NCBI GenBank assembly: GCA_947482555.1
Contig: CANKKB010000002.1
Span: 1-46,085 of the forward strand
Source: Burkholderiaceae bacterium
Lineage (GTDB): Bacteria > Pseudomonadota > Gammaproteobacteria > Burkholderiales > Burkholderiaceae
Direction: 5' to 3'
Length of the DNA: 46,085 nt
This document shows, in pieces, positions 16,896-46,085 of the stretch; position 1 is the stretch's first letter; each line of letters opens with the position of its first letter. Under the pieces are notes generated by a model. It saw nothing but the letters and a program-made list of their open reading frames with translations. It was not told the origin of the DNA and searched no databases. Made by a program: the position numbers and the translations under genes.

Positions 16896-16912
16896 TATCT
16901 ATCAAGAAAACA

Positions 16913-25300: not shown

Positions 25301-25311
25301 CTATAAATCCT

Positions 25312-26142: not shown

Positions 26143-26202
26143 TATTATTTTGCTAGCTTAATTGAAATTATTCATTTGACTTAACTCTCAGATTTTGTTG
26201 GC

Positions 26203-28406: not shown

Positions 28407-28438
28407 TGTGCCCCCTCTTTTTAGTTATTAAAAGAAAT

Positions 28439-29914: not shown

Positions 29915-30513
29915 AACTCGATTACCATTAAAACTTGACCTGCCTCAATCGTTTCGCCATCAGCTACAAAGATATCGATAATTTTTCCAGCGTGTTCAGC
30001 TGAAATCGTATTGAGTAGCTTCATCACTTCCACAATGCACACGGGAGTATCGGGGCTTACCTTTGAGCCAATCTCGACAAAAGGCGGTGAAGTAGGATTG
30101 GGTCGGCGGTAAAAAGTTCCCACCATTGGGCTCAAGACTTCGAAAAGACCAGCTTGACTCCTTGGCTTAATAGCTTCTACAGCCTTAATAGCTTCTACAG
30201 CTGTAGGGGCTGTCGTTTGGGTTGCTCCTCCTAGATTTGCGCTGGAGCTCACTTCAGGAGAGCGCTTATTTCCAACTTCGATTTCTATTTCAAATTCTGG
30301 TGTTTTATAAGAAAAAGTATTGAAATGACCAGCATCTTTAATGAGGCCAATGACTTCTTTCACTTGTTGCATTGAAATTGTGCCAACCTGCACAGTAGGC
30401 TGAGTTTGAGCAATAGATGAAGAACCGGGCTTAGGAATTATCTTTGAGCTTGGCTTAACCCTAGCTAGGGCTAGGAGTCCGTCCTTTGTAGCGGGCATCT
30501 TTTTACGAGTCAC
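29911..30513 (-). CDS. Biotin carboxyl carrier protein, AccB-like
   Basis: This 200-residue BCCP has an AccB-type N-terminal segment (VKEVIGLIKDAGHFNTFSYKTPEFEIEIE), a low-complexity linker, and a biotinyl domain with the thumb-like insertion TFYRRPNPTSPPFVEIG and the biotin lysine K165 in VEVMKLLNT. The linker contains a perfect 18-base tandem duplication (AVEAIK twice). The start is GTG at 30513; an ATG five codons in is also possible. It overlaps the carboxyltransferase by 4 bases, so it is a dedicated carrier rather than the housekeeping AccB. It faces the IclR gene across 112 bases. Confidence 0.87.
   Translation of the reverse strand: MTRKKMPATKDGLLALARVKPSSKIIPKPGSSSIAQTQPTVQVGTISMQQVKEVIGLIKDAGHFNTFSYKTPEFEIEIEVGNKRSPEVSSSANLGGATQTTAPTAVEAIKAVEAIKPRSQAGLFEVLSPMVGTFYRRPNPTSPPFVEIGSKVSPDTPVCIVEVMKLLNTISAEHAGKIIDIFVADGETIEAGQVLMVIEL
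30166..30201. repeat. Perfect 18-bp tandem duplication inside the BCCP linker
   Basis: The unit cttaatagcttctacagc occurs twice in direct succession. In the BCCP frame it encodes a doubled six-residue unit in AVEAIKAVEAIK. It is in frame and lies in the flexible linker, so it should be neutral and may vary in copy number between strains. Confidence 0.9.
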
Positions 30514-30522
30514 AGTTACAAT

Positions 30523-30548
30523 CCATTAATGAGTTCTTTATTTAATGG
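30523..30548. promoter_or_regulatory. Candidate regulatory dyad in the BCCP-iclR divergent intergenic region
   Basis: CCATTAA, 12 bases, TTAATGG is a perfect inverted repeat with 7-base arms in the 112-base region between the divergent BCCP and IclR genes. CATTAA recurs on the plus strand at about 30575 and 30611. The position suits control of both operons by the adjacent IclR protein. No clear -35/-10 pair could be assigned. Confidence 0.4.
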
Positions 30549-30580
30549 AATATAAAGTATCATCAGATGAAATGCATTAA

Positions 30581-30594
30581 GGGTAAATACCTAA
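30581..30594 (+). promoter_or_regulatory. GGGTAAATACCTAA motif, also found upstream of soxC
   Basis: This 14-base sequence in the BCCP-iclR intergenic region differs at one position from GGGTAAATACGTAA on the minus strand at 43195-43182, upstream of the soxC-like gene. A shared regulator is possible. The TF is unknown and two copies are weak support. Confidence 0.3.
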
Positions 30595-30625
30595 ATATGC
30601 CCCATAAAACCATTAATAGCTAAAA

Positions 30626-31444
30626 ATGAAGAAATTAATTGCTGTAACTTCAAAAAATTCAGCGGATCTTACTGCCCTCACCATCCTGGAGGGAAGTAAA
30701 TCCAGTATGGCAGAGAAAGTATTGCTCATCTTGGTGGTCATTGCCAACTCGGAATTTCCGCTCACACTTGAAAATATTTCTTCGAGCATTGGTTTAGCAA
30801 AGCCGACCGCTTTTCGTCTTTTAAATACCCTGGTAGCTCAAGGTTTTGTTGAGCGCGATCAGAATGGGCGTCGCTTCCAGCCGAGCGCCAAATTTCGTTT
30901 AATGGGTATTAATTTACTCTCTGGTGACTCAATTCGCTCCCAACGAGTTGCGGTCATGAAACGTCTAGTTGATACTATTGGTGAAACATGTAACTTTAAT
31001 ATTTTGGATGGTAATGAAGTTCTTTACTTAGATCGGATTGAAACCGCTGCACCTATACGTTTACATATTGACTCTGGCATGCGAGTTCCACTTCACTGCA
31101 CTGCAAGTGGTAAATTATTTCTTTCGTATATGAATGAAACACAAATAAAGCGAATTGTTGGCTTAGAGCCATTTGATTATTACACTCCTAAGACCATGAC
31201 TAGCTTTAGCGATTTAATGCCTGCAATAAAAAAAATCAGTGGGCAAGGTTATTCAATTGATGAATGTGAATACTTAGAAGGTTCCATTTGTGTTGCTGTA
31301 CCTGTTCGTGACCAAAAAAATAAAGTATATGCGGCACTTGTTGCCCATGGGCCAACACCCCGCTTTACCTTAAAACTCGCCGAGCAAGCAGTGGCGAATT
31401 TGCAAGCCGCAGCTGCGGAATTAGAAGATAGCCTCACCCAATAA
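30626..31444 (+). CDS. IclR-family transcriptional regulator
   Basis: This 272-residue regulator has an N-terminal winged helix-turn-helix (LTLENISSSIGLAKPTAFRLLNTLVAQGFVER, about residues 52-83) and a C-terminal IclR effector domain (LDRIETAAPIRLHIDSGMRVPLHCTASGKLFL, then SIDECEYLEGSICVAVPVRD). The start is uncertain: the first ATG gives an extra ~27 residues before MAEKVLLILVVIA. It is divergent from the BCCP operon and 30 bases ahead of BKACE copy 2, so it probably controls both. IclR proteins usually bind a pathway acid or intermediate. It is homologous to the IclR at 39438. Confidence 0.92.
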   Translation: MKKLIAVTSKNSADLTALTILEGSKSSMAEKVLLILVVIANSEFPLTLENISSSIGLAKPTAFRLLNTLVAQGFVERDQNGRRFQPSAKFRLMGINLLSGDSIRSQRVAVMKRLVDTIGETCNFNILDGNEVLYLDRIETAAPIRLHIDSGMRVPLHCTASGKLFLSYMNETQIKRIVGLEPFDYYTPKTMTSFSDLMPAIKKISGQGYSIDECEYLEGSICVAVPVRDQKNKVYAALVAHGPTPRFTLKLAEQAVANLQAAAAELEDSLTQ

Positions 31445-31474
31445 ACAATCTCAAGCCAATTTTTCGGAGCTTAC

Positions 31475-32311
31475 ATGAATCAACCTGTCATTATTACCGT
31501 TGCTATTACTGGTGCAGTACCGCGCAAAAAAGATTGCGCAGGTTTACCTGTTACGCCGCCAGAACAAATCGAAGAAACTCAGAAAGCGTATGAGGCCGGA
31601 GCATCTTTGGTGCATATTCATGTGCGCAATCCCGATGAAAGCCCCAGCTCTAACCCAGACCTATATGCAGCAGTACAAGAAGGCGTAAAAAAATATTGTC
31701 CCGAGATGATCGTTCAATTTTCTACTGGTGGCCGTGGTCGAGATCAAGCTGCGCGAGGAGCGATGCTCTTTCATCGACCCGATATGGCTTCCTTAGCAAC
31801 CGGCTCAACGAACTTTCCAGTAGGCATTTACGAAAATCCTACTGATTTTGTTGAAGGGCTAGCGAGCGAGATGTTGAAATATGAAATTAAACCGGAAATT
31901 GAAATATTTGATTTAGCGATGCTCTATAACGCCGCTAATTTAGTTAAAAAAGGATTACTTAACTCACCTCCCCATGTGCAATTTGTCATGGGTGTTCCTA
32001 ATGCAATGCCGGTACGGCGCTCTATTTTAGAATTTTTAATTAAAGAGCTAAAAGATGTGATGCCGACTGCCACCTGGACAGCGGCAGGTATTGGTAAACA
32101 CCAATTAACTGTTAATGAATGGGCGCTAGAGCTAGGTGGTCATGTACGTACAGGCTTAGAAGATAACCTACGCTACGATGAAACTCGAGTTGCGAAAGAC
32201 AATGCCGAACTTGTTTCGCGGGTAGCAAAAATGGCGCAGGCCATGGGACGCCCCGTAGCAAGCGGTAAGCAAGCGCGTGAAATATTAGGCTTAAGACCTA
32301 TCTCCGCATGA
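31475..32311 (+). CDS. BKACE-family beta-keto acid cleavage enzyme (second copy)
   Basis: This 278-residue BKACE protein has metal histidines in VHIHVRNPDE, the FSTGGRGRDQAARG phosphate/CoA region, and the glutamate in RTGLEDNLRY. CGGAG precedes the ATG by 6-7 bases. It overlaps the GMC oxidoreductase gene by 4 bases (ATGA), so the two are translationally coupled: an alcohol oxidase could create the beta-keto group that this enzyme then cleaves with acetyl-CoA to an acyl-CoA and acetoacetate. It is clearly different from the copy at 27519, suggesting two substrates or two steps. Confidence 0.9.
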   Translation: MNQPVIITVAITGAVPRKKDCAGLPVTPPEQIEETQKAYEAGASLVHIHVRNPDESPSSNPDLYAAVQEGVKKYCPEMIVQFSTGGRGRDQAARGAMLFHRPDMASLATGSTNFPVGIYENPTDFVEGLASEMLKYEIKPEIEIFDLAMLYNAANLVKKGLLNSPPHVQFVMGVPNAMPVRRSILEFLIKELKDVMPTATWTAAGIGKHQLTVNEWALELGGHVRTGLEDNLRYDETRVAKDNAELVSRVAKMAQAMGRPVASGKQAREILGLRPISA

Positions 32312-33941: not shown

Positions 33942-35219
33942 ATGCCCCGGCTGCCTTTTTCTCACTGGTTACCAGAATACAAAACCCCCGGCACTATACG
34001 CGCTGATTTATTAGCCGGGCTTACTGGAGCAGTAGTCGTTTTGCCGCAAGGCATTGCTTTTGCGATGCTGGCCGGTATGCCACCGCAATACGGACTTTAT
34101 GCGGCGATGGTACCTTGCTTAATTGCTGCCCTATTTGGCTCAAGCCGCCTGATGGTTACGGGACCAGCAAACGCCATATCTTTGACAACGATGGCATTAA
34201 TTGCGCCTCTCGCAACTCCAGAATCAGCGGAATATGTTGGCTTAGTTCTCACCCTCAGTTTTCTAATTGGTCTGATTCAAATTACCTTAGGATTTAGTGG
34301 TGCTGGGAAGTGGGTCCAAAAAGTACCGCACTCAGTAATTGTTGGTTTTACTGTTGGGGCTGCTATTTTGATTATGAATAGCCAAATTGGCACGGTTACT
34401 GGTTTTGCGATTCCACGCGGTATTAGTCCGCATGAAACCGTACATGAACTGTATTTGGCCCTGATGCAAAATCCATGGCATCCGGAAGTAATGGGTTTAG
34501 TAATAGCTACAATTTTAATTATTATTGTCTGGCGCCCACTTAATCGCTGGTTTCCAGGAATGCTTGTAGCCGTTATTATTGGCAGTCTAATTGCGCTTTA
34601 TATCGAAAGTCTTTACCCTGAACTTACGCCCTTTAAGCGAGTGAGTAGCATTCCGGGGCCTATTCCCATCTTTTCCTTACCGCATCTTGACGTGAATACC
34701 TTGAACCAATTATTTGGTGCAACCTTAATCATGGCCCTATTGGCTTCCACCGAAGCGATGGCTATTGCCCGAGCGATGGCTATAAAAACAAAAGATACAT
34801 TTAATGCGAATCAAGAATTTATTGGTCAAGGTTTAGCCAATCTCGCGGGTTCATTTTTTTCAGCCTATCCATCAAGTGGCTCATTTAATCGCAGTGGTGT
34901 GAATTTATCTGCTGGCGCAAAAACGCCTTTATCAGCTGTTAGTGCGGCACTTTTTTTAGTGATTATTTTGACCTTTGTTGGCCCGCTCGCTAAATATCTA
35001 CCTTACCCCGTTATTGGAGCCCTATTATTAGTGGTTGCTTGGAATCTCATCGACCCTAAAGAGATTCGCAAAGAATTTCATCATGGGCCAAAGGAATGGG
35101 TGCCCATGATAATTACATTTATTGGAACTATTACGATTTCTTTGGAATGGGCGATTCTAGCGGGTATTTTTACCTCTATCCTTGCTCACCATTTATATAA
35201 AGCCAAAAAGTCGCTTTAA
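33942..35219 (+). CDS. SulP-family anion transporter without STAS domain
   Basis: This 425-residue membrane protein of the SLC26/SulP family has the N-terminal signature LLAGLTGAVVVLPQGIAFAMLAGMPPQYGLYAAMVPCLIAALFGSSRLMVTGPANAISL, about 10-12 helices and the AYPSSGSFNRSGVNLSAGAKTPLSAV motif. It ends right after the last helix (AILAGIFTSILAHHLYKAKKSL), so the cytoplasmic STAS domain (about 100-150 residues) of typical SulP proteins is absent. Substrates in the family are sulfate, bicarbonate or dicarboxylates. It is 8 bases after the GMC gene, probably in the same operon, and its stop overlaps the stop of the convergent acyl-CoA ligase. Confidence 0.88.
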   Translation: MPRLPFSHWLPEYKTPGTIRADLLAGLTGAVVVLPQGIAFAMLAGMPPQYGLYAAMVPCLIAALFGSSRLMVTGPANAISLTTMALIAPLATPESAEYVGLVLTLSFLIGLIQITLGFSGAGKWVQKVPHSVIVGFTVGAAILIMNSQIGTVTGFAIPRGISPHETVHELYLALMQNPWHPEVMGLVIATILIIIVWRPLNRWFPGMLVAVIIGSLIALYIESLYPELTPFKRVSSIPGPIPIFSLPHLDVNTLNQLFGATLIMALLASTEAMAIARAMAIKTKDTFNANQEFIGQGLANLAGSFFSAYPSSGSFNRSGVNLSAGAKTPLSAVSAALFLVIILTFVGPLAKYLPYPVIGALLLVVAWNLIDPKEIRKEFHHGPKEWVPMIITFIGTITISLEWAILAGIFTSILAHHLYKAKKSL

Positions 35220-36787
35220 GTAGAAGTGCTGACACCCGGAAGATCTGATAACTTTAAGCGCTGAATTTTTCCTGAAGCGCCGCGCGGTAATTCATCAACA
35301 AATAGAATAATCTTGGGCGTGCGCAGTTTACCTAATTGCTCCAAGCAAAAATTGCGTATCTCAATCTCGGTGCAACTAGTATCCGGCCTTAAGACGATGC
35401 ACGCCAAAATTTCTTGGCCATAGTTCGCATCCGGGATTCCCACTGCAGCCGCGTCGAGAACGGCAGGATGCTTTAATAAAGCTTCATCTATTTCGCGGGG
35501 GGCAATATTTTCACCGCCCTTAATAATCAATTCCTTCAAGCGGCCGGTAATGAAATAAAAACCATCATCATCACGCAAGCCTAAGTCGCCTGTTTTAAGC
35601 CAGCCATCACTGGCAAAAGCTTTGAGAGTTTCAGCTTCGCCATGGTAATACGCTTGCATTACATTTGCACCACGTAAGCAAACTTCCCCAATTTGGTTAT
35701 TAGCCAATTCAATTCCATCGGGATCGACTACTTTGGCCTCAACGCCACAAGGTAAGCCAGGGCTACCATAACGTCGCTCACCATCTTGCGGATTGCAAAA
35801 TACCATCGAGGCCGATTCAGTCATACCCATGCCTTCTATAACCGGAATACCAAAGAGATTTTCAAACTCATGATGGTGCTCAGGTGGTAATGGTGCAGAG
35901 GCCGAACGGCCAAAACGGATTTGCTTTAATTGCGCTGGCAAATTAGGGTCTACGCCATTTGCTTTGGCAGCATTAATTAAATAAGCAATGATGGTTGGCA
36001 CCATGTTAATCCATGTACACCTGTATTTGATGGCGACCTGCCACCAATTACTAACCGAAAAATGATGAGGGGCAACAATAGCGCCACCTGAAAAGAAGGG
36101 AGAAATTGTCGCAATCACTTGCCCATTAATGTGGTAAATCGGTAATGAACTTAAGACAGTATCTGCTGGAGTAAGCCTATGCCACTGACTTACGGTCTTA
36201 GCTGCATACAGTACATTTGCATGGCTGAGGAGTACGCCCTTAGGGGTGCCTGTTGTGCCAGAGGTATACATTAATAAAGCGGGATTATGAACCGTAAGTT
36301 TCGGTAAATTACCGGCTACAGAGTTCATAAATGGGCCCTGTGCCGCGTCGGGGTCAATCTCAACGAGTTTAAATTTAGGCTGAATTTTTTTTAAGGCATT
36401 AAATAAGTGAATTTTATTGTCAGGTGCATAAAATAATATTTCAATATCACTATGCTCAAATACCCAAGCCAGCTGATCAACTGGGGCTAATAAGTTCATT
36501 GGCACCACGACTCGACCTGTCGCCATCGTCGCCAGAAAAACACTCGCTGTTTGTCGACCGTTATGCATAAATAAACCCACATGCCCATGAGCACTCACCC
36601 CCTGCTCATCCAGCCAGGTAGAGAGATGTTGGGCCTCTTGGGCTAACTCACCATAGGTCACCACAGCCTCAGTTTCGGGTGCATATAAAAAGGGGTGCTC
36701 AGCTTGCTGTTGATGCCAGTACGTCATTACGTCGCCAATGGTCAAACATGAGCTTGGCGGTAAGGTTGAAGTCATTTGCTCTAACAT
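35216..36787 (-). CDS. AMP-forming acyl-CoA ligase (SauT-like context)
   Basis: This 523-residue adenylate-forming ligase activates a carboxylic acid as the acyl-AMP and then the CoA ester. Motifs are the P-loop LLMYTSGTTGTPKGVLLSH (about residue 175), GMTES, the hinge TGDLGLRDDDGFYFITGRLKELIIKGGENIAPREID, and the catalytic lysine in PRGASGKIQRL. It follows an acylating aldehyde dehydrogenase by 54 bases. Ligase plus acylating dehydrogenase is the SauT-SauS arrangement that turns sulfoacetate into sulfoacetaldehyde in Cupriavidus necator. Other small acids fit the chemistry equally. Its stop shares bases with the convergent SulP stop (TTAA), leaving no room for a terminator. Confidence 0.88.
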   Translation of the reverse strand: MLEQMTSTLPPSSCLTIGDVMTYWHQQQAEHPFLYAPETEAVVTYGELAQEAQHLSTWLDEQGVSAHGHVGLFMHNGRQTASVFLATMATGRVVVPMNLLAPVDQLAWVFEHSDIEILFYAPDNKIHLFNALKKIQPKFKLVEIDPDAAQGPFMNSVAGNLPKLTVHNPALLMYTSGTTGTPKGVLLSHANVLYAAKTVSQWHRLTPADTVLSSLPIYHINGQVIATISPFFSGGAIVAPHHFSVSNWWQVAIKYRCTWINMVPTIIAYLINAAKANGVDPNLPAQLKQIRFGRSASAPLPPEHHHEFENLFGIPVIEGMGMTESASMVFCNPQDGERRYGSPGLPCGVEAKVVDPDGIELANNQIGEVCLRGANVMQAYYHGEAETLKAFASDGWLKTGDLGLRDDDGFYFITGRLKELIIKGGENIAPREIDEALLKHPAVLDAAAVGIPDANYGQEILACIVLRPDTSCTEIEIRNFCLEQLGKLRTPKIILFVDELPRGASGKIQRLKLSDLPGVSTST

Positions 36788-36841
36788 AAAAATTGGGTCA
36801 AACCCGAATGATTAAACTGACTTAATTGATAAGGAAGTCAA

Positions 36842-38248
36842 TTACTGACGCGAAAATTGACTGAAATAATTTTCCAGTAAAACTTCCACTGTCGGCACAA
36901 TTTCAGGAATCGGACGAACGACACGGGAAATATTGAGGTAATGACGATAGTTCATATTATCCGAAAAATTATTACGCCCCCAAGTGCCGCACCCCATTGA
37001 TAAAGAAAAGGGTAGGCCATTATCAAAACTGCCACCGGTGGCGATCGCATGAGCTTGATTGACAATGACTCTAGCAACGGGCAATTCATTTGCTAACTCA
37101 GCAGCGCGTTGCTCCATGATTGGGCCCTGTAACTGGGTATGCAAGCCGACCGAATGGCCAGAGCCTTGATACGCATACACTTTGGTAATCAAAGCTTTAG
37201 CGTCTGCAAAATTGGCAACTTGCCAAACTGTTAATACGGGACTTAATTTTTCACCAGAAAATGGCGCATTTGCCCCAGATCCTTCTTCTTCTACCATTAA
37301 AAAGCGCGCGGTCTTCGCGAGCGGGTTTTTTAGCTCAGCTCGCTCAGCAATAAATGCTGCAGTCTGGGCGGTGAGTGTCGAGGTTAATTTACCATCATGA
37401 AACATCACTACTTGCAAACGTTGTTTATCATCTGCATCTAACAATACACCCCCTGCCTGCTCTAAAGCCTGAATAGCTTTAGCGTATACAGGGGCGCAAA
37501 TCACCACGCCGTTTTCACTCGAGCAGCTCGTGGCGTTATCAAATGTTTTTGACTGGGCAATTTGTTTGGCTGATTCAGTTAAGTCAGCTAATTCATCAAT
37601 GATGACTACGACATTGCCAGCACCAACGCCAAATGCAGGCGTTCCAGAAGCGTAAGCCGCCCGAATATTTGCCTGCGAACCTGTTGCTACAACTAAATCG
37701 GCCAAGCGCATTAACTCTTGCGTAGCATCTTTAGTGATGGGATTAGGTAAAACTTGCACTAAATCACGCGGTGCTTTAACTAAATCAAGCTGTTGATGCA
37801 CAAATTCTAATAAACGTGCGCAAGTAGTTTGTCCTTTTGGCGACGGCGCAACAATAATTGCATTTCGGCACTTTAAGGCATTGAGAATTTTATTAATTGG
37901 AGTGGCACCTGGGTTAGTCGAGGGCGTTATCGCCGCTACTACCCCTACGGGCCTGGCATATTCAGCCAACCCTGTAGCTGCGTTATCTGCAATCAATCCA
38001 ACCGTTTTTGCATGCTGAAGATCGCGCACTAAGCCTAAGGTTTTACGATAATTTTTCTTAAATTTATCCGCCACATTGCCCAGGCCCGTATCGTGCACTG
38101 CTAATTCAGCCAAGGCTTGATTACGCTTCGGCTCCAAAATAGCCCAGGCTACGGCCTCGACAACTAAATCAACTTCACTTTGAGTATATTTTTCAAAGGT
38201 TTGTTGTGCGGCTCGGGCGCGCGCAATTAAATTTTCTACTGGTGACAT
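36842..38248 (-). CDS. CoA-acylating aldehyde dehydrogenase (SauS-like)
   Basis: This 468-residue acylating aldehyde dehydrogenase of the EutE/AdhE-N/SauS group has the catalytic cysteine C242 in DNATSCSSENGVVI, a VVAAITPSTNPGATPINK cofactor region, and the C-terminal MGCGTWGRNNFSDNMNYRHYLNI motif, which recalls SauS annotations. With NAD(P)H it would reduce an acyl-CoA to the aldehyde, or the reverse. It overlaps the Bug gene stop by one base (TAATG) and precedes the ligase. With the ligase, a Bug receptor, an IclR regulator and a Pta-like enzyme it forms a likely sulfoacetate (or analogous acid) module. No microcompartment proteins are present. Confidence 0.87.
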   Translation of the reverse strand: MSPVENLIARARAAQQTFEKYTQSEVDLVVEAVAWAILEPKRNQALAELAVHDTGLGNVADKFKKNYRKTLGLVRDLQHAKTVGLIADNAATGLAEYARPVGVVAAITPSTNPGATPINKILNALKCRNAIIVAPSPKGQTTCARLLEFVHQQLDLVKAPRDLVQVLPNPITKDATQELMRLADLVVATGSQANIRAAYASGTPAFGVGAGNVVVIIDELADLTESAKQIAQSKTFDNATSCSSENGVVICAPVYAKAIQALEQAGGVLLDADDKQRLQVVMFHDGKLTSTLTAQTAAFIAERAELKNPLAKTARFLMVEEEGSGANAPFSGEKLSPVLTVWQVANFADAKALITKVYAYQGSGHSVGLHTQLQGPIMEQRAAELANELPVARVIVNQAHAIATGGSFDNGLPFSLSMGCGTWGRNNFSDNMNYRHYLNISRVVRPIPEIVPTVEVLLENYFSQFSRQ

Positions 38249-39231
38249 TATTCCGCCTTAATACTCGACTCTCTAGTTACCTTACTCCATTTAGCCAATT
38301 CAGCTTTTACGATCGCACCTAATTGAGCTGGCGTGCTGCCTACCGCCTCTGCGCCCTGGGCGATTAGTTTTTCCTTAGTACTGGGTTGTGCTAAGACCTT
38401 AACTACTGCGTTATATAGTGCATCAACAATTGCTTGAGGTGTGCCCACTGGGACGAACATGGCATACCAAGAATCCACTTCGAAATCTTTGAAACCAGAC
38501 TCTGCCATGGTTGGTACGTCCGGAAAAATTACTGAGCGCTTAGTAGTCGATACCGCTAAAGCGCGCAATTTGCCGGCCTTAATATATTGGGTTGCAGCGG
38601 GTATGGAAACCCATAACAAGGGTACTTGTCCTGCCATTACATCAGTAACCGCTGGGCCACCGCCGCGATAAGGGATATGCGTCATCTTCACATTCGCTGA
38701 TGTTGCCATCATGGCGCCAGCAAGATGCCCTGGTGAGCCATTACCAACGGAAGCAAACGCAATGGTGTCAGGTTTGAGGCGAGCTAACTCAATGGCTTCT
38801 TTAACCGTCTTTGCCGGAAAATCAGGATTGGCGACTAAAATTTGCGGCAGTGAAGCGACTAATGAAACAGGTAAAAAATCTTTTTCGGTATTAAAAGCAA
38901 GTTTGGGATAAATCGCCGGATTAATCGTATGTGAGGATAAAGTAAATAATACGGTGTAACCATCTGCTGGTGACTTAGCAACTGCGTCAGTGCCAATCGA
39001 ACCCCCTGCACCGCCACGATTATCAATAATAATCTGCTGACCCAAAGCTTGACTCATCGGCTCTTGCACAATCCGCGCAATGACATCTGTACCGCCACCA
39101 GGTGGATAAGGGACGACAAATTTAATGGGCTTATTCGGCCATGCCTGCGCCAAAGCGCCCGTGGAAAACATCAACCCGTAAGCAGAAAAAATTAAGGTGA
39201 CAAGCAGCTTTATAACAATGGATTTTGACAT
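38248..39231 (-). CDS. Bug-family periplasmic solute-binding receptor
   Basis: This Bug/TctC-family receptor of about 327 residues has a signal peptide ending near TGALAQ, then AWPNKPIKFVVPYPPGGGTDVIAR, RGGAGGSIGTDAVAKSPADGYTVLF and VKMTHIPYRGGGPAVTDVMAGQ. The ORF track adds 13 codons; I choose the ATG at 39231 (MSKSIVIKLL) because AAAGGA lies about 7 bases upstream and the signal peptide then starts cleanly. It is first in a three-gene unit with the acylating dehydrogenase and the acyl-CoA ligase and diverges from an IclR regulator. It presumably binds the acid that the ligase activates. Confidence 0.9.
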   Translation of the reverse strand: MSKSIVIKLLVTLIFSAYGLMFSTGALAQAWPNKPIKFVVPYPPGGGTDVIARIVQEPMSQALGQQIIIDNRGGAGGSIGTDAVAKSPADGYTVLFTLSSHTINPAIYPKLAFNTEKDFLPVSLVASLPQILVANPDFPAKTVKEAIELARLKPDTIAFASVGNGSPGHLAGAMMATSANVKMTHIPYRGGGPAVTDVMAGQVPLLWVSIPAATQYIKAGKLRALAVSTTKRSVIFPDVPTMAESGFKDFEVDSWYAMFVPVGTPQAIVDALYNAVVKVLAQPSTKEKLIAQGAEAVGSTPAQLGAIVKAELAKWSKVTRESSIKAE

Positions 39232-39330
39232 CTTGATTCCTTTATCTTCGTATACCCATTTTTTTATCATAGATTAGGTAGTTTTAGGTCCTACAGACCA
39301 ATGCCTATAGAATAACTAATCTTACTCAAT

Positions 39331-39345
39331 GGAACAAGTTGTTTC
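39331..39345. promoter_or_regulatory. Candidate IclR operator between Bug and iclR genes
   Basis: GGAACAA-G-TTGTTTC is an inverted repeat with 7-base arms (6 of 7 paired) in the 206-base divergent region. Size and placement fit an IclR-family dimer site. A second partial match, CGAAACGTTC, lies at about 39385-39393. No experimentally known site was compared. Confidence 0.4.
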
Positions 39346-39437
39346 GTATAAGTGCAAATACTAGTATTTTATTGATAAATTACCGAAACGTTCTATTAAA
39401 ATGAACAAATTCACCCATTTCATGAGATTACATAGGC

Positions 39438-40238
39438 ATGCTTGAATCAACCCTAACTGACTTGGTGGAAGGCATCAAAAAAGATCCCGCTAATGAAAAT
39501 TCATCGATGCTGAAAGGGGTGGTCATTCTAGAGGCTCTAGCCACCCTTTCTCAGCCGGCTACCTTGGCCCAACTGATGCAAATTACTGCCATGCCAAAAG
39601 CATCGCTGCACCGCACATTAGCGATCTTTGAAGAGGCTGGCTTAGTTTCTCGTGAACCTGGCGGCAAAACGTATGCCCCCGGCGAACGCCTCTCTAAATT
39701 AGCAATTGCCACGATTACGCACGATAGTGTTGCTGCCATTCGCCACAGCGTACTCAGAAAATTAGTTGCTGAGGTTGGGGAAACCTGCAACCTCGCAGTG
39801 TTGCGTAGAGGCGAGTTATTTTATTTAGACCGCGTTGAAGCGGATTGGCCACTGCGTTTGCATTTGCCACCGGGAACCGTGCTACCTCCACATTGCAGTG
39901 CAAGCGGAAAATTACTTCTGGCTTTTAAGGTTGCGGATGAGCGCCGTCAACTATTACAAAATTTACCGCTCTTGCCCTTTACCCATCGTACGATTACCGA
40001 CCGCAGGCTTTTGGAGTCTGAATTAGAGCGAATTGTGACTACCGGCTATGCTGTTGATAACGAAGAGTATGTGATCGGCGTATCTTGTGTTGCTGTACCG
40101 GTTTACGATAGTAACCAAGATGTTGTAGCTGCAATTGCGATTCATGCGGCCACTGCGAGGCTACCTCTGAATCAAGCAATGGAGTACATTCCGCAACTAC
40201 AAGAGGCAGCTCAACGCGTCTCACAAACACTGAGCTAA
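39438..40238 (+). CDS. IclR-family transcriptional regulator
   Basis: This 266-residue IclR protein has the winged helix at PATLAQLMQITAMPKASLHRTLAIFEEAGLVSR (about residues 39-71) and the effector domain LDRVEADWPLRLHLPPGTVLPPHCSASGKLLL, ending with SCVAVPVYDSNQDVVAAIAIHA. It is divergent from the Bug-dehydrogenase-ligase unit and overlaps the Pta-like gene by one base (TAATG). The layout regulator, ligase, acylating dehydrogenase matches the sauRST cluster of C. necator as I recall it. It probably responds to the imported acid or its CoA ester. Confidence 0.92.
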   Translation: MLESTLTDLVEGIKKDPANENSSMLKGVVILEALATLSQPATLAQLMQITAMPKASLHRTLAIFEEAGLVSREPGGKTYAPGERLSKLAIATITHDSVAAIRHSVLRKLVAEVGETCNLAVLRRGELFYLDRVEADWPLRLHLPPGTVLPPHCSASGKLLLAFKVADERRQLLQNLPLLPFTHRTITDRRLLESELERIVTTGYAVDNEEYVIGVSCVAVPVYDSNQDVVAAIAIHAATARLPLNQAMEYIPQLQEAAQRVSQTLS

Positions 40239-41152
40239 TGAGTCGCCCTACCTATCCGCGTTTGCAGCAACTCATTGCTTCTGCCAAAAGTCATTTATCG
40301 CTGGGCGTGGTTTATCCTTTAAGTCTGCCAGCCCTTGAAACGGTTGGCGAACTACTAACGCATCAATTATGTGTACCCACTTTACTTGGCCCCGCAGAGC
40401 GTATTACTCAAATGGCCAAAGAGGCTGGTTTAGATTTAACTCATGTTCGCTTAATCGATACCCCTGATGATCCAGTCGCAGCTGCAAAAATAGCAGTGCA
40501 AATGGTCAAGCAAGGTGAATTTGCTGCCTTGATGAAAGGCTCACAACATACTGAAGACTTAATGGGTCCCATCGTTGAGCGTGGCGGCTTACGCACCGAA
40601 CGCCGCACCAGCCATCTTTTTCTTTTTGAATTGGCTAGCTACCCTAAATTGTTGGGTATTAGCGATTGTGTCGTCAATATCGCACCGAATGCAGCGCAAA
40701 AGCAGCAAATCTTACTCAGTAGTCTTGAGGCGCTCGACCGTTTGGGAATTCATCAGGCCAAAGTTGCAATCATTGCAGCCACTGAAGTCGTCAACCCCGC
40801 CATGCCAGCAACCGTCGATGCAAAAACCATTGTTGATACGCATCAAATTGCGTCTATTTATCCTGGTGCAGTCATTGAAGGTCCACTTGGCTTTGATAAT
40901 GCGCTCTCCGCCCTTTCCGCCAAAACCAAAGGCATTCAATCAATCGTGGCTGGTGAACCCGATCTATTGTTGGTGCCGGATTTACAGGTGGGCAATATTT
41001 TATATAAAGCCCTAATTTATATGGCTGGGGCTGAATGCGCCGGCGTTATTCTAGGCGCACAAGTGCCCATTATTTTGACCTCACGTGCCGACTCTGTTTT
41101 TTCTCGAGTAGCATCAACTGCGCTGGCGCTCCGCTTAGCCGCACAGCCATAA
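40238..41152 (+). CDS. Phosphate acetyl/butyryltransferase (Pta/Ptb family)
   Basis: This 304-residue protein of the phosphate acyltransferase family interconverts acyl-CoA plus phosphate with acyl phosphate plus CoA. Family segments are LSLGVVYPLSLPALETVGEL, ALMKGSQHTEDLMGPIVERGGLRTERRTSHLFLFEL, VEGPLGFDNALS-like IEGPLGFDNALSALSA, and LLVPDLQVGNILYKALIYMAGAECAGVILGAQVPIILTSRADS. In sulfonate pathways a Pta turns the acetyl phosphate made by Xsc into acetyl-CoA, which fits this setting, although Xsc and acetate kinase are not in the window. It is coupled to the IclR gene and ends just before a strong bidirectional terminator. Confidence 0.88.
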   Translation: MSRPTYPRLQQLIASAKSHLSLGVVYPLSLPALETVGELLTHQLCVPTLLGPAERITQMAKEAGLDLTHVRLIDTPDDPVAAAKIAVQMVKQGEFAALMKGSQHTEDLMGPIVERGGLRTERRTSHLFLFELASYPKLLGISDCVVNIAPNAAQKQQILLSSLEALDRLGIHQAKVAIIAATEVVNPAMPATVDAKTIVDTHQIASIYPGAVIEGPLGFDNALSALSAKTKGIQSIVAGEPDLLLVPDLQVGNILYKALIYMAGAECAGVILGAQVPIILTSRADSVFSRVASTALALRLAAQP

Positions 41153-41178
41153 AAAAATCGCCCGGAGGCGATTTTTCT
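41151..41178. terminator. Strong bidirectional intrinsic terminator
   Basis: AAAAATCGCC-CGGA-GGCGATTTTT is a perfect 10-bp hairpin with a 4-base loop flanked by A-runs and T-runs on both sides. It sits between the convergent Pta-like gene (stop 41152) and the soxD-like gene (stop 41196) and should end transcription from both directions. Confidence 0.92.
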
Positions 41179-41195
41179 TTTTCCACGTCAAGACT

Positions 41196-41789
41196 TCATT
41201 GTTTGCAGTTTGTCATACAACGTACTGCATTGGTATCGGGCCGATCATCAACTATAAAACCATCACGATTAGGCATCTTTACTGCCGCGAGAGTTTTGCT
41301 ATTCATTTCATCCGTTTTACCTACTAAGCCATTTAAATTCAAAATATAAGCCGAAACTGCATAAACTTCGTCATTCGTTAAAGATTGGGGCTTATCCATT
41401 GGCATCGAACGGCGCACATAATCAAATAAGATTGGTGCATAAGGGTACATGCTTCCGGGAGTAAGCACCCGGGCATTGGTGGTAAACGACCCTATGCCGC
41501 CTACCATCGTGCCAAAAACCGGGCCGCCTTTCGCATCAGGTCCATGGCAATAAGCACACTTGGCTGCATACACTTTCTCGCCAGCTACAGCATTACCTTG
41601 TCCAGCAGGTAAACCTAGGCCGTCTTGGGTGCGAATGTCAATATTCCAAGCTTTCAGATCTTGCTCAGAAATTGGCTTGCCAAATGCAGCGCCAGAGGTA
41701 TTTTTAGGTGCCGTATTTTGCGAAGTAGTACAAGCCCCCAATAAAGTTAAGCCTGCTGCAATTATTATTATTTTTTTAACCAATGCCAT
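41196..41789 (-). CDS. soxD: SoxD-like monohaem cytochrome c, predicted lipoprotein
   Basis: This 197-residue c-type cytochrome resembles the N-terminal haem domain of SoxD, the electron-accepting partner of SoxC. There is one haem site, C78-AYC-H82, and a likely axial methionine in RRSMPMDKPQSLT. The LPAGQGNAVAGEKVYAAKCAYCHG and LFDYVRRSMPMDKPQSLTNDEVYAVSAYIL segments are typical of SoxD. A lipobox (LLGAC, C20) suggests anchoring in a membrane facing the periplasm. Classical SoxD is larger with two haems; this one has only one. It overlaps the soxC-like gene by 14 bases. SorB-like cytochromes of sulfite dehydrogenase are the alternative name. Confidence 0.83.
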   Translation of the reverse strand: MALVKKIIIIAAGLTLLGACTTSQNTAPKNTSGAAFGKPISEQDLKAWNIDIRTQDGLGLPAGQGNAVAGEKVYAAKCAYCHGPDAKGGPVFGTMVGGIGSFTTNARVLTPGSMYPYAPILFDYVRRSMPMDKPQSLTNDEVYAVSAYILNLNGLVGKTDEMNSKTLAAVKMPNRDGFIVDDRPDTNAVRCMTNCKQ

Positions 41790-43092
41790 TTGTCACCTCC
41801 CCATTTGCGCTGACATTCCATGGGAAAATGCCATTGTGATGTTGTACAAAGCCTGTAATAGCGCGTACCTTTTTAATATCGTCTACAGTTGGTTGCACAT
41901 ATCCGGTGCTATCTACTGCACGGCTTGCAATTACTGCGGGTCCACCTTGCCAATTCCAGTTGAAGTTAAACCGTGTCAAACATTTATTGAGTACAGGGCC
42001 TTCTAGCTTAGCTTGCTGCCAATTTTTTCCACCATCAACCGAAACATCAACAGCAGCAATCTTGCCATTACCAGACCAAGCAAACCCAGTAATTTCGTTA
42101 TATCCCGGCTTGATCTTCATGTTACCCGAAGGATTTGTAATAACTGATTTAGCTTCCATTTCAAAACTAAATTTACGCCATTTTCCATCAGGCATTGGGT
42201 CGCTATAACGAGCTGTTTCGCCACGGACATGCCAGGGTTCGGTGCCTGCTTTAATCCGCCGCAACCATTTAATGCTAACGTTACCTTCCCAACCAGGAAT
42301 AAACAAACGCAGGGGGAAGCCATTTTCACTTCTGAGCATTTCGCCATTCATCGCATAAGCCAACATTGCCTCATCTAAAATACGATCTAGAGGCAAACTA
42401 CGCAAATGGCCAGAAGCATCCGCTCCCTCAGCCACTATCCACGTGGCTTTTGGATCTATGCCAGCTTCATCGAGCACCCAAGAAAGTGGTACCCCTGTCC
42501 ACTGCGCACAAGAAAGCAAACCATGGGTTTGTTGCACCGTTTTCGATGCGGGCTTAAGCCAATCGGTTAAGCCATTTCCAGAGCACTCCATAAAATGAAA
42601 ACGCGTTACTGTGGGATAACGCATTAAATCTGACATCGTTAATACCAGGGGCTTACCAACCATTCCGTGTACCACTAATTTATGGGTATCCGGATTAATA
42701 TCAGGTACCCCATTATGATGGCGCTCAAAAAACAATCCATTTGGGGTCACGATACCTGGCGTTGATTGGATTGGCGTCATGCTCCAATCAGAGAATTGCT
42801 GTCTATTCACTAAGACATCAGAGCGGCGGCGAATCACATTCGCTTCATACTTTGATGGCATACCGTAAGCGGCAACCAAGGGCGCACCCATTACTTGATT
42901 TGAGGCAGGAATCGGCAAAGGATCTGCCATTGCTGCTGTGCTAGCTATTCCTAGGGTGCCTGCTCCACCAGCCAGGGCTACCGATTTACGCAGAAATGAC
43001 CGCCGTGAAAATTCCTTAGACAGCGAGGTTGAGGCTTGAATTTCATTTTGTGAAGCCGCCACTATGGCTTGCATCTTTTTCGATTCTTTCAA
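41776..43092 (-). CDS. soxC: SoxC-like molybdenum sulfite/sulfane dehydrogenase
   Basis: This 438-residue sulfite-oxidase-family protein has a twin-arginine signal (SRRSFLRK at about 29-36, ending AAMA), a Mo-pterin domain with the molybdenum-binding cysteine C170 in HFMECSGNG, and the C-terminal dimerisation domain (AWSGNGKIAAVDVSVDGGKNW). The FFERHHNGVPDINPDTHKL and PGWEGNVSIKWLRRIK segments are SoxC-like. I keep the TTG start because AGAGGAG lies 6 bases before it; the ATG six codons later has only a poor site. It is paired with a cytochrome but not with soxAXYZB in the window. It may oxidise sulfite released from sulfonates, like SorAB, or sulfane sulfur. Confidence 0.88.
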   Translation of the reverse strand: MKESKKMQAIVAASQNEIQASTSLSKEFSRRSFLRKSVALAGGAGTLGIASTAAMADPLPIPASNQVMGAPLVAAYGMPSKYEANVIRRRSDVLVNRQQFSDWSMTPIQSTPGIVTPNGLFFERHHNGVPDINPDTHKLVVHGMVGKPLVLTMSDLMRYPTVTRFHFMECSGNGLTDWLKPASKTVQQTHGLLSCAQWTGVPLSWVLDEAGIDPKATWIVAEGADASGHLRSLPLDRILDEAMLAYAMNGEMLRSENGFPLRLFIPGWEGNVSIKWLRRIKAGTEPWHVRGETARYSDPMPDGKWRKFSFEMEAKSVITNPSGNMKIKPGYNEITGFAWSGNGKIAAVDVSVDGGKNWQQAKLEGPVLNKCLTRFNFNWNWQGGPAVIASRAVDSTGYVQPTVDDIKKVRAITGFVQHHNGIFPWNVSANGEVTNGIG

Positions 43093-43098
43093 TCTACG

Positions 43099-43106
43099 CT
43101 CCTCTT
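43099..43106 (-). promoter_or_regulatory. Ribosome-binding site that favours the TTG start of soxC
   Basis: On the minus strand AAGAGGAG ends 6 bases before the TTG at 43092. The in-frame ATG at 43074 is preceded only by AAGAATCGAAAAAG. This decides the start and keeps the full twin-arginine leader either way. Confidence 0.6.
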
Positions 43107-43181
43107 TAATTTCATATAAATACGCATTTTTGTAATGATTAGCATAGCCTGTTTAAGCCTATTTATACATAGATAAATCCC

Positions 43182-43195
43182 TTACGTATTTACCC
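43182..43195 (-). promoter_or_regulatory. GGGTAAATACGTAA motif upstream of soxC
   Basis: About 90-103 bases before the soxC start the minus strand reads GGGGTAAATACGTAAGGGATTTATC, with TAGATA/TATCTA arms on either side. The 14-base core matches the motif at 30581 in 13 of 14 positions. The position fits an activator site. The rest of the 43093-43252 gap is AT-rich and I see no gene in it. Confidence 0.33.
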
Positions 43196-43252
43196 CTATC
43201 TATCAATTGATAAAGAAATGAGGAGATTAGCTGAAGGGCTTGTTTTAAGTCC

Positions 43253-44317
43253 TTACCGTAGGCAAGAAAAAGGCAATTTTTCTATATAAACAGGGCCTAA
43301 ATGGCTATTTGTAGAGCTTACTGCAAGAGCTGGTGCTTGACCCCCCACATCGCCATTTACCAGGGCAGCTTGGTCTATAAAGCCAAGGCCAATTTCATAT
43401 CCTAATTGAGGGGAAAAAGCCCGGCTCGTAACTTGAACTTGTGGCGCTATCTTAGGGGCTAAATTAGTCGCATTATTTTCACCTAGCGCACTAGGCGGAA
43501 AATGCACACCTACCAGCAATTCTTGTCTACCGTCTGACTCACTACCTCTGTCAGCTCCGAACAATTTCCCAAGCGATGCAAGCGTTCGCGGCTCAATTAA
43601 TTCATTGCAAAATAAAATAAAGCCCGCCTCAATACGTAGGGTATTGGCAGCAAGAAAACCGCATTCCAAGGCAGGAAAAAAGGCTGTTGTCAGTAATTGC
43701 TGCCACAAGACAATAGCTTCTGCGCGAGGCACCAACAACTCATAGCCTAGCTCGCCGGTATACCCTAGACGAGCAATCGTTAACGCGGGGTAATTTGGCG
43801 GCTGATTAAAAGAAAAATATTGTGGTAAATCAATAACCTTAAGCCCTAGAGCAGCCTCCAATAAAGCGCCACTATGTGGGCCTTGTACTGCTATTACTTG
43901 ATATTGCCCAGCAATATCTGCCAGATGCAGGTCGCGATAAGGTCTTGCTGCCTTAAGTAAAAAGGGCAAAATGGAATAGCCAGTGATTAAATAAAAATGG
44001 TCTGGACCCAAGCGCCACACAGTGGCGTCTAACCAAACGTCGCCATTCTCATTTAGCAACATGCTATAGGCAATTTTTCCAATTGCCAATTCCTCACAAT
44101 TTCGGTTTTGAATAAGCTTAAGTAATGTAATGGCATCACTGCCGATTAATTCAACCGTACTCATAAAGGAGAAATCAAATAGACCTGCTGATCTTCTCAC
44201 TGCCCAATACTCTTGCTCAAGGGATGAAAATTCAGCCGGTAAAAGAAGATTTTGGCTAAGTTCCAGTAATGGGATTTTTCGCATGGCGAAATAATCTGCT
44301 AGCGCTGGTGACTCCAT
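43253..44317 (-). CDS. GcvT-family aminomethyltransferase-like protein
   Basis: This 354-residue protein of the GcvT/DmdA/sarcosine-dehydrogenase-C folate-binding family has LEQEYWAVRRSAGLFDFSFMSTVELIGSDA at the start, AYSMLLNENGDVWLDATVWRL in the folate-site region with an aspartate, and IARLGYTGELGYELLVPR in the centre. Such proteins pass a one-carbon unit from an amine, sulfonium or ether to tetrahydrofolate. No gcvH or gcvP is nearby, so it is not the glycine cleavage T-protein. It lies 4 bases after a TSUP gene and downstream of a PanB-like gene. The methyl donor cannot be read from the sequence; a DMSP-demethylase-like or N-methyl substrate is possible. Confidence 0.8.
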   Translation of the reverse strand: MESPALADYFAMRKIPLLELSQNLLLPAEFSSLEQEYWAVRRSAGLFDFSFMSTVELIGSDAITLLKLIQNRNCEELAIGKIAYSMLLNENGDVWLDATVWRLGPDHFYLITGYSILPFLLKAARPYRDLHLADIAGQYQVIAVQGPHSGALLEAALGLKVIDLPQYFSFNQPPNYPALTIARLGYTGELGYELLVPRAEAIVLWQQLLTTAFFPALECGFLAANTLRIEAGFILFCNELIEPRTLASLGKLFGADRGSESDGRQELLVGVHFPPSALGENNATNLAPKIAPQVQVTSRAFSPQLGYEIGLGFIDQAALVNGDVGGQAPALAVSSTNSHLGPVYIEKLPFSCLR

Positions 44318-44321
44318 TTGG

Positions 44322-45086
44322 CTAAACCAAGGAATTAACTGTCATATAGACCCCAACCAGAATACATAGCCAGGCTGCGACTTTCTTTAAACGCTCAACC
44401 CGAACCTGATGAGCGATGATTACACCAATCCAGATGCCAATTAATTCAAACGGCAATATAAATGCGACGATTTTGAAATCAACTATGTTATTCATCACAT
44501 TAGCTAAGGAGCCCGACGCAGAAGCGATTACCTGTATAACCTGAGCAATACCGATGGTGAGTAGCGGACTAAATTTAAAGACTAGCATCAATGGCACTGA
44601 AAATAATGGGCCACCGGCTCCAGAAAGACCGGAACCAAAGCCCGCCAAAAGACCAATTAATATTAGTAAACCCGTTTTTTTACCGGTTAATTTCTGCGCT
44701 TTTGAATCGCTGTGCGTCGCCACAGAGATACGTGCTAATAAGGCCCAGACTCCCGCAGCAATAACCAATAAGCCAATTATGCTAATCAATAATTGATCAG
44801 CGGTTTTTGCATTCAGTTGTGCCCCGAGATAACTAGCGATTACCGCCCCTAAACAGACTGGTATAGACATGCGCCAAGCAATTGACCCACGCCGCTGAAA
44901 CAAATAAGTGCCCAAAGCGCCGGTAAAGATAAAGGTAATCAGGGCCGAAGCACTTGCCTGATGAATATCTAAGCCTGCAAAAGCAATCAAAGCCGGAATC
45001 AACAGCACTCCACCAACACCAACGGCGCCAATAAATGTCCCCGCCAATATTGCTGTAGCCGCCAATAAAAATAATCCCAGAACCAT
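44322..45086 (-). CDS. TSUP (TauE/SafE) membrane transporter
   Basis: This 254-residue TSUP protein with about eight helices carries the repeat signatures AGTFIGAVGVGGVLLIPALIAFAGLDIHQASASAL and GLLAGFGSGLSGAGGPLFSVPLMLVF. It belongs to a different branch from the two TSUP genes at 14.6-16.1 kb, judged by the GVGGVLLIPAL and GSGLSGAGGPLFSVPL boxes. It is 4 bases upstream of the GcvT-like gene. A strong hairpin sits 8 bases before its ATG, which itself abuts a run of six G on the coding strand. The cargo is probably a sulfur oxyanion or organic sulfonate by family. Confidence 0.86.
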   Translation of the reverse strand: MVLGLFLLAATAILAGTFIGAVGVGGVLLIPALIAFAGLDIHQASASALITFIFTGALGTYLFQRRGSIAWRMSIPVCLGAVIASYLGAQLNAKTADQLLISIIGLLVIAAGVWALLARISVATHSDSKAQKLTGKKTGLLILIGLLAGFGSGLSGAGGPLFSVPLMLVFKFSPLLTIGIAQVIQVIASASGSLANVMNNIVDFKIVAFILPFELIGIWIGVIIAHQVRVERLKKVAAWLCILVGVYMTVNSLV

Positions 45087-45094
45087 CCCCCCAA

Positions 45095-45126
45095 ATAAAT
45101 AGAGGGCCTTTAAGCCCTCTATTTAT
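45095..45126 (-). terminator. 13-bp hairpin between PanB-like and TSUP genes
   Basis: ATAAATAGAGGGC-CTTTAA-GCCCTCTATTTAT is a perfect 13-bp inverted repeat with a 6-base loop, 28 bases after the PanB-like stop and 8 bases before the TSUP start. On the minus strand it is followed by TTTGGGGGG, a poor T-run. It may be a partial terminator for panB-like, an attenuator, or an mRNA-stabilising structure controlling the TSUP-GcvT pair. Confidence 0.6.
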
Positions 45127-45154
45127 AGTATCTCAAAATTACTGAGTAAAACGC

Positions 45155-46021
45155 TTACCAGTTAACCATCTTTTTAAATTTGTCCAACTCTTCAGGACTC
45201 ATAAAGACAGTGTGCTCTTTACCAGGATATTGACGAGTTTTAACATCGTGCATGTATTCGGTATAGCCTTTTTCTAAAATAGGTACTAAATCACAGTAAA
45301 TTTTAGAATGGCGTGGCACGTGCTTTTCATATAAATGGAATAAATCAGAGCCAATAATATGTACGCCGTCTGAAGTACTTCCAGAACCCAAGCTAATTAC
45401 CGGCACATCTAAAGTTTCAGCCAAATACTGGCTTACTTCTGAAGTACAAACTTCCGTCATGATCGAGAAGCAGCCGGCGTCAATGAATGCCTGCGCATCT
45501 TCAACCAATTCTTTGGCGCGTTGCGCTGTTTTACCTTGAGCAACAAAACCGCCTAATTGAGGCATTCTCATTGGGCAAATACCGATATGACCCTGAACTG
45601 GAATACCAGCCTTAATAATGGCTTCAATATTGCGAGCATGATGGATATTGCCTTCACACTTCATCACTTCAGCGCCTGCTTTAGCAACGTATTGAGCGGC
45701 GTTATCAACTGCCTGCTGCTCTGAAAGATGGAAGCTCATATAGGGCATATCAACCATGCGTAAGCCATACTGAGAGCCACGCTTAACGGCTTGAGCCATA
45801 AACATAACCTCTTCAAATGAGACTGAGGTAGTCGATTCATGACCAAATAGCACCATTCCACCAGTATCGCTAACGCAAAGAATATCAATGCCTAAACGAT
45901 CAGCAATAATGGCATTCTCATAGTCATAAACTGCAAGCTGAACAATCGGCTCTTTATTTTTTTTCTTCGCATTCAACATCGGAATGGTCATTTTTTTTCT
46001 TTTTACTGGTGCATCAGACAT
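45155..46021 (-). CDS. PanB-like ketopantoate hydroxymethyltransferase paralogue
   Basis: This 288-residue TIM-barrel protein is similar to 3-methyl-2-oxobutanoate hydroxymethyltransferase, which adds a hydroxymethyl group from methylene-tetrahydrofolate to a 2-oxo acid. Metal and catalytic residues are kept: D52 (VSDTGG), D91 (DMPYMS), K121 and E123 (KCEGN), H145 (GHIGICP) and E190 (TEVCT). Several canonical boxes differ: SDTGGM for GDSLGM, and GSGSTSDGVHII for GAGPxCDGQ. The N-terminus has a basic extension (KRKKMTIPMLNAKKKNKEP). GAGGAG precedes the ATG by 8 bases. With the GcvT-like gene downstream it suggests folate C1 chemistry rather than pantothenate synthesis; no panC is adjacent. Confidence 0.8.
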   Translation of the reverse strand: MSDAPVKRKKMTIPMLNAKKKNKEPIVQLAVYDYENAIIADRLGIDILCVSDTGGMVLFGHESTTSVSFEEVMFMAQAVKRGSQYGLRMVDMPYMSFHLSEQQAVDNAAQYVAKAGAEVMKCEGNIHHARNIEAIIKAGIPVQGHIGICPMRMPQLGGFVAQGKTAQRAKELVEDAQAFIDAGCFSIMTEVCTSEVSQYLAETLDVPVISLGSGSTSDGVHIIGSDLFHLYEKHVPRHSKIYCDLVPILEKGYTEYMHDVKTRQYPGKEHTVFMSPEELDKFKKMVNW

Positions 46022-46085
46022 TTCTAAATCTCCTCGTTAACATAAACAACAAAAAATACTAAAAAATTAAGGCGCAATCGGCTCG

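Follow-up and report, generated by a model that had tools for sequence, protein, structure and literature searches.

A PanB-like, a TSUP and a GcvT-like gene at a Burkholderiaceae contig end as the probable downstream part of a C1-sulfonate oxidation operon

Three consecutive genes at the end of a Burkholderiaceae contig encode a PanB-like protein of the ketopantoate hydroxymethyltransferase superfamily (to be referred to as PanB2), a TSUP-family carrier and a stand-alone GcvT-like protein (GcvT2). With high probability, this trio is the downstream end of an operon for the oxidation of a one-carbon (C1) sulfonate of the methanesulfonate type, rather than a free-standing cassette. The window, the whole stretch of 46,085 nucleotides that was analysed, is the complete contig C2 (CANKKB010000002.1) of a metagenome-assembled genome (MAG; GCA_947482555.1) that is 78% complete. 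A preliminary description of this DNA had placed the three genes in a row, and all three open reading frames were confirmed on the minus strand (Table 1), with Pfam scores far above chance. The intergenic gaps are 68 bp between PanB2 and TSUP, 4 bp between TSUP and GcvT2, and 160 bp between GcvT2 and the following soxC gene.

The contig stops 64 bp upstream of the PanB2 gene, and as a result the rest of the operon is not visible in the window. Its end overlaps contig C83 of the same genome by 128 identical bases. This contig carries MsmA'-B-D-C-E-F-G-F-G, with the remainder of a Rieske alpha subunit, the beta subunit, reductase, ferredoxin, a binding protein and two permease/ATPase pairs. Another contig, C175, contains a partial formate dehydrogenase (FdhA'), Fhs (formate-tetrahydrofolate ligase) and the start of the same MsmA gene. 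The arrangement is intact on one contig in the isolate Polynucleobacter sp. IMCC 30228 (loci L067 and L110), where the order is Fdh / Fhs-MsmA-B-D-C-E-F-G-F-G-PanB2-TSUP-GcvT2-SoxC-SoxD, and near-identical loci are found in close relatives named Polynucleobacter. The msm and fhs proteins encoded on C83 and C175 are 88-99% identical to their counterparts in the isolate. Fhs scores 906 bits against its equivalog model, and the best family of the ABC binding protein is SsuA (sulfonate binding), with a score under the curated cut-off. The trio is therefore found beside genes for a complete Rieske oxygenase system and a sulfonate-type ABC importer, with formate-tetrahydrofolate ligase and formate dehydrogenase upstream and a SoxC/SoxD-type sulfite dehydrogenase downstream.

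This context bears on what the cassette does. The preliminary description had proposed folate C1 chemistry tied to an anion carrier, and formate-tetrahydrofolate ligase, FolD and formate dehydrogenase are indeed among the neighbours. Its suggestion that a sulfonium or N-methyl compound is demethylated does not agree with the conserved partners, which are an msm-type Rieske oxygenase, a sulfonate-type importer and a sulfite dehydrogenase. These partners point to a C1 sulfonate as the most likely source of the C1 unit, and to sulfite as the anion.

The association extends well beyond this genome. A single scan of 85,000 species genomes yielded 31 PanB2 loci. They belong to beta-, alpha- and gammaproteobacteria, and one comes from a MAG labelled Actinomycetota. 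In a comparison of 35 loci, in all of which PanB2 is present by ascertainment, TSUP is located near PanB2 in 32 and GcvT2 in 28; many of these loci are short contigs, and gene absences there mean little. Msm-type transporter genes are found in most PanB2 loci of sufficient length, and FolD, Fhs or Fdh genes lie beside PanB2 in many. Subsets of the loci add FolD, Fhs, formate dehydrogenase, a cyclic nucleotide (cNMP)-binding protein, a histidine kinase/NtrC pair or a LysR regulator. Of the 34 PanB2 genomes, 30 have an MsmA homologue (E ≤ 1e-60), and the remaining four are draft MAGs. An independent set of 369 Gammaproteobacteria, drawn evenly, has PanB2 (E ≤ 1e-60) in three genomes, that of the window included. 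MsmA (E ≤ 1e-90) is found in these three, and a 41% homologue of it elsewhere in the set (Fisher p = 4e-5 for the association, with the window genome left out). Among 399 genomes of the phylum, only the window's genome and one other (G635) have PanB2, and both have MsmA. None of 21 other sampled genomes of the window's genus has PanB2 at E ≤ 1e-60, which indicates that the island is accessory in this genus. The closest plasmid relative of PanB2 found is an Enterococcus panB of about 36% identity.

PanB2 is related to canonical PanB (E. coli structure 1m3u) in its fold, and the best Foldseek matches of its model are PanB structures. It scores 213.9 against TIGR00222, just over the cut-off of 207.55, and 242 against PRK00311, below the cut-off of 272; the canonical PanB of the same genome scores 335 and 370, respectively. 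The equivalents of E. coli Asp45, Asp84, Lys112, Glu114, His136 and Glu181, which we take to be the catalytic and Mg-binding residues, are invariant in all 31 PanB2 orthologues, as they are in canonical PanBs. The proposal of a divergent PanB with intact catalytic residues and altered signature boxes thus stands. Unlike this shared core, 29 alignment columns around the common motifs, pocket columns among them, are fixed differently in the two groups, including (in E. coli numbering) G44S, S46T, H68M, G116N, Q142M, G201S, I202L, Q211V, I212H, V214I and F229H. PanB2 is about 30% identical to the E. coli enzyme, has a C-terminal extension of about 17 residues, and is found in an msm rather than a pan gene context. 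One branch (SH-aLRT 100, length 4.1) of a maximum-likelihood tree separates the 31 PanB2 sequences from all canonical PanBs. The AlphaFold2 model is only moderate (pLDDT 74, with active-site loops below 50), and no claims about the pocket are based on it.

In 12 of the 13 loci compared, PanB2 is also better conserved than any other protein of the cluster; in the exception (L060), MsmG is higher. Identity to the isolate locus L067 is 68-95% for PanB2, 51-86% for MsmA and 33-44% for GcvT2, which is the pattern expected of a core catalyst and not of a bystander. PanB2 is not the sole panB of its genome, as a canonical panB is found with folK on contig C173. A third PanB, on contig C179 (L002 1465-3317), has Cys and Gln at the equivalents of E. 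coli Asp84 and Glu114, and its gene follows branched-chain ABC ATPase genes and precedes that of a PanE-like reductase.

We know of no established dedicated enzyme for loading formaldehyde on tetrahydrofolate (THF). The gene sets around PanB2 cover all the steps past methylene-THF, with FolD, Fhs and formate dehydrogenase. Fae is absent from 33 of the 34 PanB2 genomes, and glutathione-route genes are absent from several, including the isolate. No S-formylglutathione hydrolase (FghA) and no class-III alcohol dehydrogenase above the cut-off was found in IMCC 30228, in a search that did not cover zinc formaldehyde dehydrogenases or the ribulose monophosphate route. Spontaneous condensation of formaldehyde with THF is too slow to support growth (PMC7073904). 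Taken together, the lack of Fae, the missing glutathione route in the isolate and the slow spontaneous reaction lead us to expect an enzyme that loads THF. Like Fae, which uses tetrahydromethanopterin, and like glutathione-dependent formaldehyde oxidation, it would bind formaldehyde enzymatically to a carrier, which in PanB2 clusters is probably THF. PanB2 is a tentative candidate for this enzyme, at somewhat less than even chances.

Our scheme for the whole cluster, to which we give a slight balance of probability, is the oxidation of a C1 sulfonate in which PanB2, with GcvT2 as an accessory, loads the C1 unit on THF, and TSUP and SoxCD remove sulfite. It is built on gene content and order, the contig overlap, co-occurrence, clade separation, residue conservation and the absence from the isolate, at the cut-offs used, of the formaldehyde routes tested; from these we infer the substrate, the direction of transport and the reactions of PanB2 and GcvT2. 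The sulfonate would be taken up by the MsmEFGH-like ABC importer, and its methyl group hydroxylated by the Rieske monooxygenase MsmABCD. The product would be hydroxymethanesulfonate, that is, formaldehyde and sulfite. PanB2 would then put the C1 unit on THF with the Mg site and Glu base that serve canonical PanB in transferring a hydroxymethyl group to folate or taking it from folate. GcvT2 may serve as an additional, optional folate protein for the capture or channelling of formaldehyde. The C1 unit would be oxidised to CO2 by FolD, Fhs and formate dehydrogenase. Sulfite would be exported by TSUP, probably a sulfite exporter and so annotated also in a Filomicrobium cluster (see below), and oxidised in the periplasm by the SoxC/SoxD-type dehydrogenase.

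A more specific form of this scheme, which we regard as unlikely, has PanB2 as a hydroxymethanesulfonate:THF hydroxymethyltransferase that passes the C1 unit directly to THF without free formaldehyde. Hydroxymethanesulfonate (HO-CH2-SO3-) would be bound at the Mg site, in the place of ketopantoate in PanB, and the conserved Glu would deprotonate its hydroxyl. Sulfite would be the leaving group, like the enolate in the reverse reaction of PanB. If this is correct, C1 units at the formaldehyde level would have an enzymatic route into THF.

Several observations weigh against the scheme. A complete genome (G824) has an X17-type MsmA (see below) that is 80% identical, the importer, TSUP, SoxCD and formate dehydrogenase, but no PanB2 at E ≤ 1e-60, so PanB2 is not required in every cluster of this kind. 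Several loci have no GcvT2, and the protein does not have the Arg with which E. coli GcvT contacts folate. FrmA and FghA homologues are present in the window's own genome, and formaldehyde could leave via glutathione there. The preserved Mg/Lys/Glu site of PanB2 is also what a 2-oxo-acid aldolase would be predicted to need. Finally, the betaproteobacterial MsmA proteins, including that of the window's genome, have a short CXH-X17-CXXH motif, and growth on methanesulfonate has been proven for the X26 type only. In G824, a 284-residue amidohydrolase-like protein without an NCBIfam match is encoded between the importer and soxC (L128 6405-7259). It is possibly a non-homologous replacement of PanB2.

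The substrate of the oxygenase is the first point on which other explanations have to be considered. The MsmA proteins of proven methanesulfonate degraders have the Rieske motif CXH-X26-CXXH, and proteins with an X17 spacer have been annotated as MsmA without proof (PMC4433239). Among the PanB2 clusters, the spacer is X26 in the alpha- and gammaproteobacterial type and X17 in betaproteobacteria, among them IMCC 30228 and, by its C175 fragment, the window's genome. The X17 oxygenase could therefore act on another C1 or methylated sulfur compound in place of methanesulfonate, with the cassette serving that substrate. Besides the shorter spacer, this idea is favoured by a separate X26 MsmA homologue in the window's genome, on contig C1, which is not accompanied by the trio. 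On the other hand, PanB2 proteins are 68-73% identical between X17 and X26 clusters, and the importer and sulfite genes are common to both, so that the products, a C1 unit and sulfite, are probably alike. We consider a different substrate of this kind less likely, though it is the strongest of the alternatives. We infer that the X17 substrate is methanesulfonate or another C1 sulfonate that would give sulfite and a formaldehyde-level C1 unit. The X26 homologue on contig C1 (L103, 52000-71900) has as neighbours a beta subunit, a ferredoxin, NMT1-type ABC genes, an isochorismatase and alpha/beta hydrolases; given this locus, an X26 spacer may not by itself point to methanesulfonate.

For PanB2 itself, the main rival is an aldolase that assimilates C1 units by joining methylene-THF or formaldehyde to a 2-oxo acid. 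This acid would not be 2-oxoisovalerate but might be, for instance, pyruvate, which would give 4-hydroxy-2-oxobutanoate. Part of the sulfonate carbon would then enter biomass. All the PanB residues for Mg, the 2-oxo acid and the base are kept, and the pocket is changed at E. coli positions Ile202 (to Leu), Ile212 (to His), Val214 (to Ile), Gln142 (to Met) and His68 (to Met). However, the conserved neighbours (Fhs, FolD, formate dehydrogenase and sulfite dehydrogenase) are dissimilatory, and no recurrent aminotransferase, dehydrogenase or other gene for a 4-hydroxy-2-oxo acid is found in the clusters. An assimilatory role is improbable on this basis.

GcvT2 could instead load formaldehyde on THF alone, as GcvT domains do in sarcosine oxidase and dimethylglycine dehydrogenase, with PanB2 in another role in the pathway. 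The protein has the two-domain architecture of these enzymes. No Pfam match was obtained for its C-terminal domain; a profile search nevertheless aligns the full two-domain length with T-proteins, trimethylamine N-oxide demethylase, sarcosine oxidase and DmdA. The AlphaFold2 model (pLDDT 84) has T-protein and sarcosine oxidase as its best Foldseek matches, with dimethylglycine dehydrogenase also near. The catalytic Asp (E. coli Asp97, mutated in 3a8k) and the equivalent of Glu195, GcvT2 Glu193, are invariant in 26 of 26 GcvT2 sequences. In contrast to the T-protein, the equivalent of E. coli Arg223 is Ala, Ile or Val and that of Tyr101 is Trp in all 26. These two folate contacts are also lost in trimethylamine N-oxide demethylase (PMC12560246).

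GcvT2 scores below both T-protein cut-offs (TIGR00528, 130 against 235.85; PRK00389, 157.8 against 300). It is the only GcvT-family gene found in IMCC 30228, and gcvP was not found in the isolate or in the window's genome (78% complete). GcvT2 therefore does not serve glycine cleavage in the isolate, and its assignment as a T-protein was rejected. Its sole status and invariant catalytic pair are in favour of GcvT2 as the loading enzyme. However, four loci (L060, L061, L064 and L129) retain PanB2 and the msm genes without it, it evolves far faster than PanB2, and the Arg223 equivalent is lost. We therefore doubt that GcvT2 acts alone.

The weakest alternative, that PanB2 is a second ketopantoate hydroxymethyltransferase sustaining coenzyme A synthesis when folate C1 pools shift during C1 growth, with GcvT2 and TSUP as bystanders, has in its favour the PanB fold and the TIGR00222 score, but is made highly improbable by the PRK00311 score, the separate long-branch clade, the canonical panB-folK in the same genome, the lack of panC or panE alongside PanB2 and the link to msm genes across proteobacterial classes.

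The trio is not entirely without precedent. The preliminary description had noted no described pathway for it, but the same genes are listed in Table 1 of Henriques and De Marco (2015), where TauE, GcvT, PanB, SoxC, SoxD, msmEFGH and msmABCD form a neighbourhood in methanesulfonate-grown Filomicrobium (PMC4433239). PanB is labelled there with 'C1-moiety transfer' and GcvT with 'methylotrophic metabolism', and the role of the two proteins is not worked out. In Candidatus Filomicrobium marinum Y/W (KM879220; PMC4433239), one 20.3 kb segment contains LysR, TauE/SafE, GcvT, PanB, SoxC, SoxD, an ABC transporter, MsmEFGH and MsmABCD. By the published gene list, this region differs from the betaproteobacterial clusters in gene order and in its X26 MsmA, and the latter clusters, with X17, add Fhs, FolD, formate dehydrogenase or a two-component or cNMP regulator. 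A literature search, whose coverage excluded most subscription journals, found no paper that joins methanesulfonate with panB. As far as searched, the sequence comparisons suggest as new that PanB2 forms a clade of its own, of unusual conservation, with a link to X26 as well as X17 oxygenases across proteobacterial classes, that the folate site of GcvT2 is altered and its presence optional, and that the isolate genome appears to lack the formaldehyde alternatives tested.

Table 1. Features of the trio and the genes downstream of it in the window.
Feature	Coordinates	Strand	Details
PanB2 (PanB-like, ketopantoate hydroxymethyltransferase superfamily)	45155-46021	minus	288 aa; PF02548 262.7 bits (cut-off 28.7)
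TSUP/TauE-SafE family carrier, probably sulfite exporter	44322-45086	minus	254 aa; PF01925 123.6 bits (cut-off 32.6)
GcvT2 (stand-alone GcvT-like folate protein)	43253-44317	minus	354 aa; PF01571 158.7 bits (cut-off 25.6)
SoxC-type molybdopterin sulfite dehydrogenase	41776-43092	minus	TTG start; TIGR04555 603.7 bits (exceeds cut-off 420)
Cytochrome c, SoxD-like partner of sulfite dehydrogenase	41196-41789	minus	overlaps soxC end; PF00034 39.3 bits; adjoins soxC in relatives
Intrinsic-terminator-like hairpin and T-run, after cytochrome c gene	41153-41176	minus	AAAAATCGCCTCCGGGCGATTTTT, read from sequence

A scan of positions 40000-46085 against Rfam gave no match. A sulfoacetate-type module adjoins the cassette (35216-41152) and is present only in Polynucleobacter-type loci. 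It contains SauS, an acylating sulfoacetaldehyde dehydrogenase (732.6 bits, cut-off 600), an acyl-CoA ligase, a TctC receptor, a divergent IclR regulator and a phosphotransacylase. A functional tie of the trio to these genes (SauS and others, 35216-38248) was rejected, as they are next to the trio in a few Polynucleobacter-type loci and not in other relatives.

Further gene sets in the window were recognised by eye. Two more nitrate/sulfonate-type ABC importers are located at 14616-18966 and 24524-27471, one with two tandem TSUP-like carriers, which suggests that other sulfonate uptake is encoded on the contig. Positions 7956-9550 carry an aquaporin-like gene, an ArsC-type phosphatase-like protein and a VOC-type protein ending in Cys-Cys, and resemble an arsenic/organoarsenical resistance set. 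At 27519-32311, two BKACE-like (DUF849-type) proteins flank an IclR regulator and a split biotin-dependent carboxylase-like pair.

The dimethylsulfide cycle yields methanesulfonate in large amounts, and bacteria that degrade it face formaldehyde and sulfite at once. The deeply conserved PanB2 clade, which accompanies the oxygenase in bacteria that lack Fae and, in several cases, also the glutathione route, is a concrete candidate for the enzyme that loads THF. It is a usable marker for this catabolism, and also a source of mis-annotation, as automatic pipelines would assign it to pantothenate biosynthesis.

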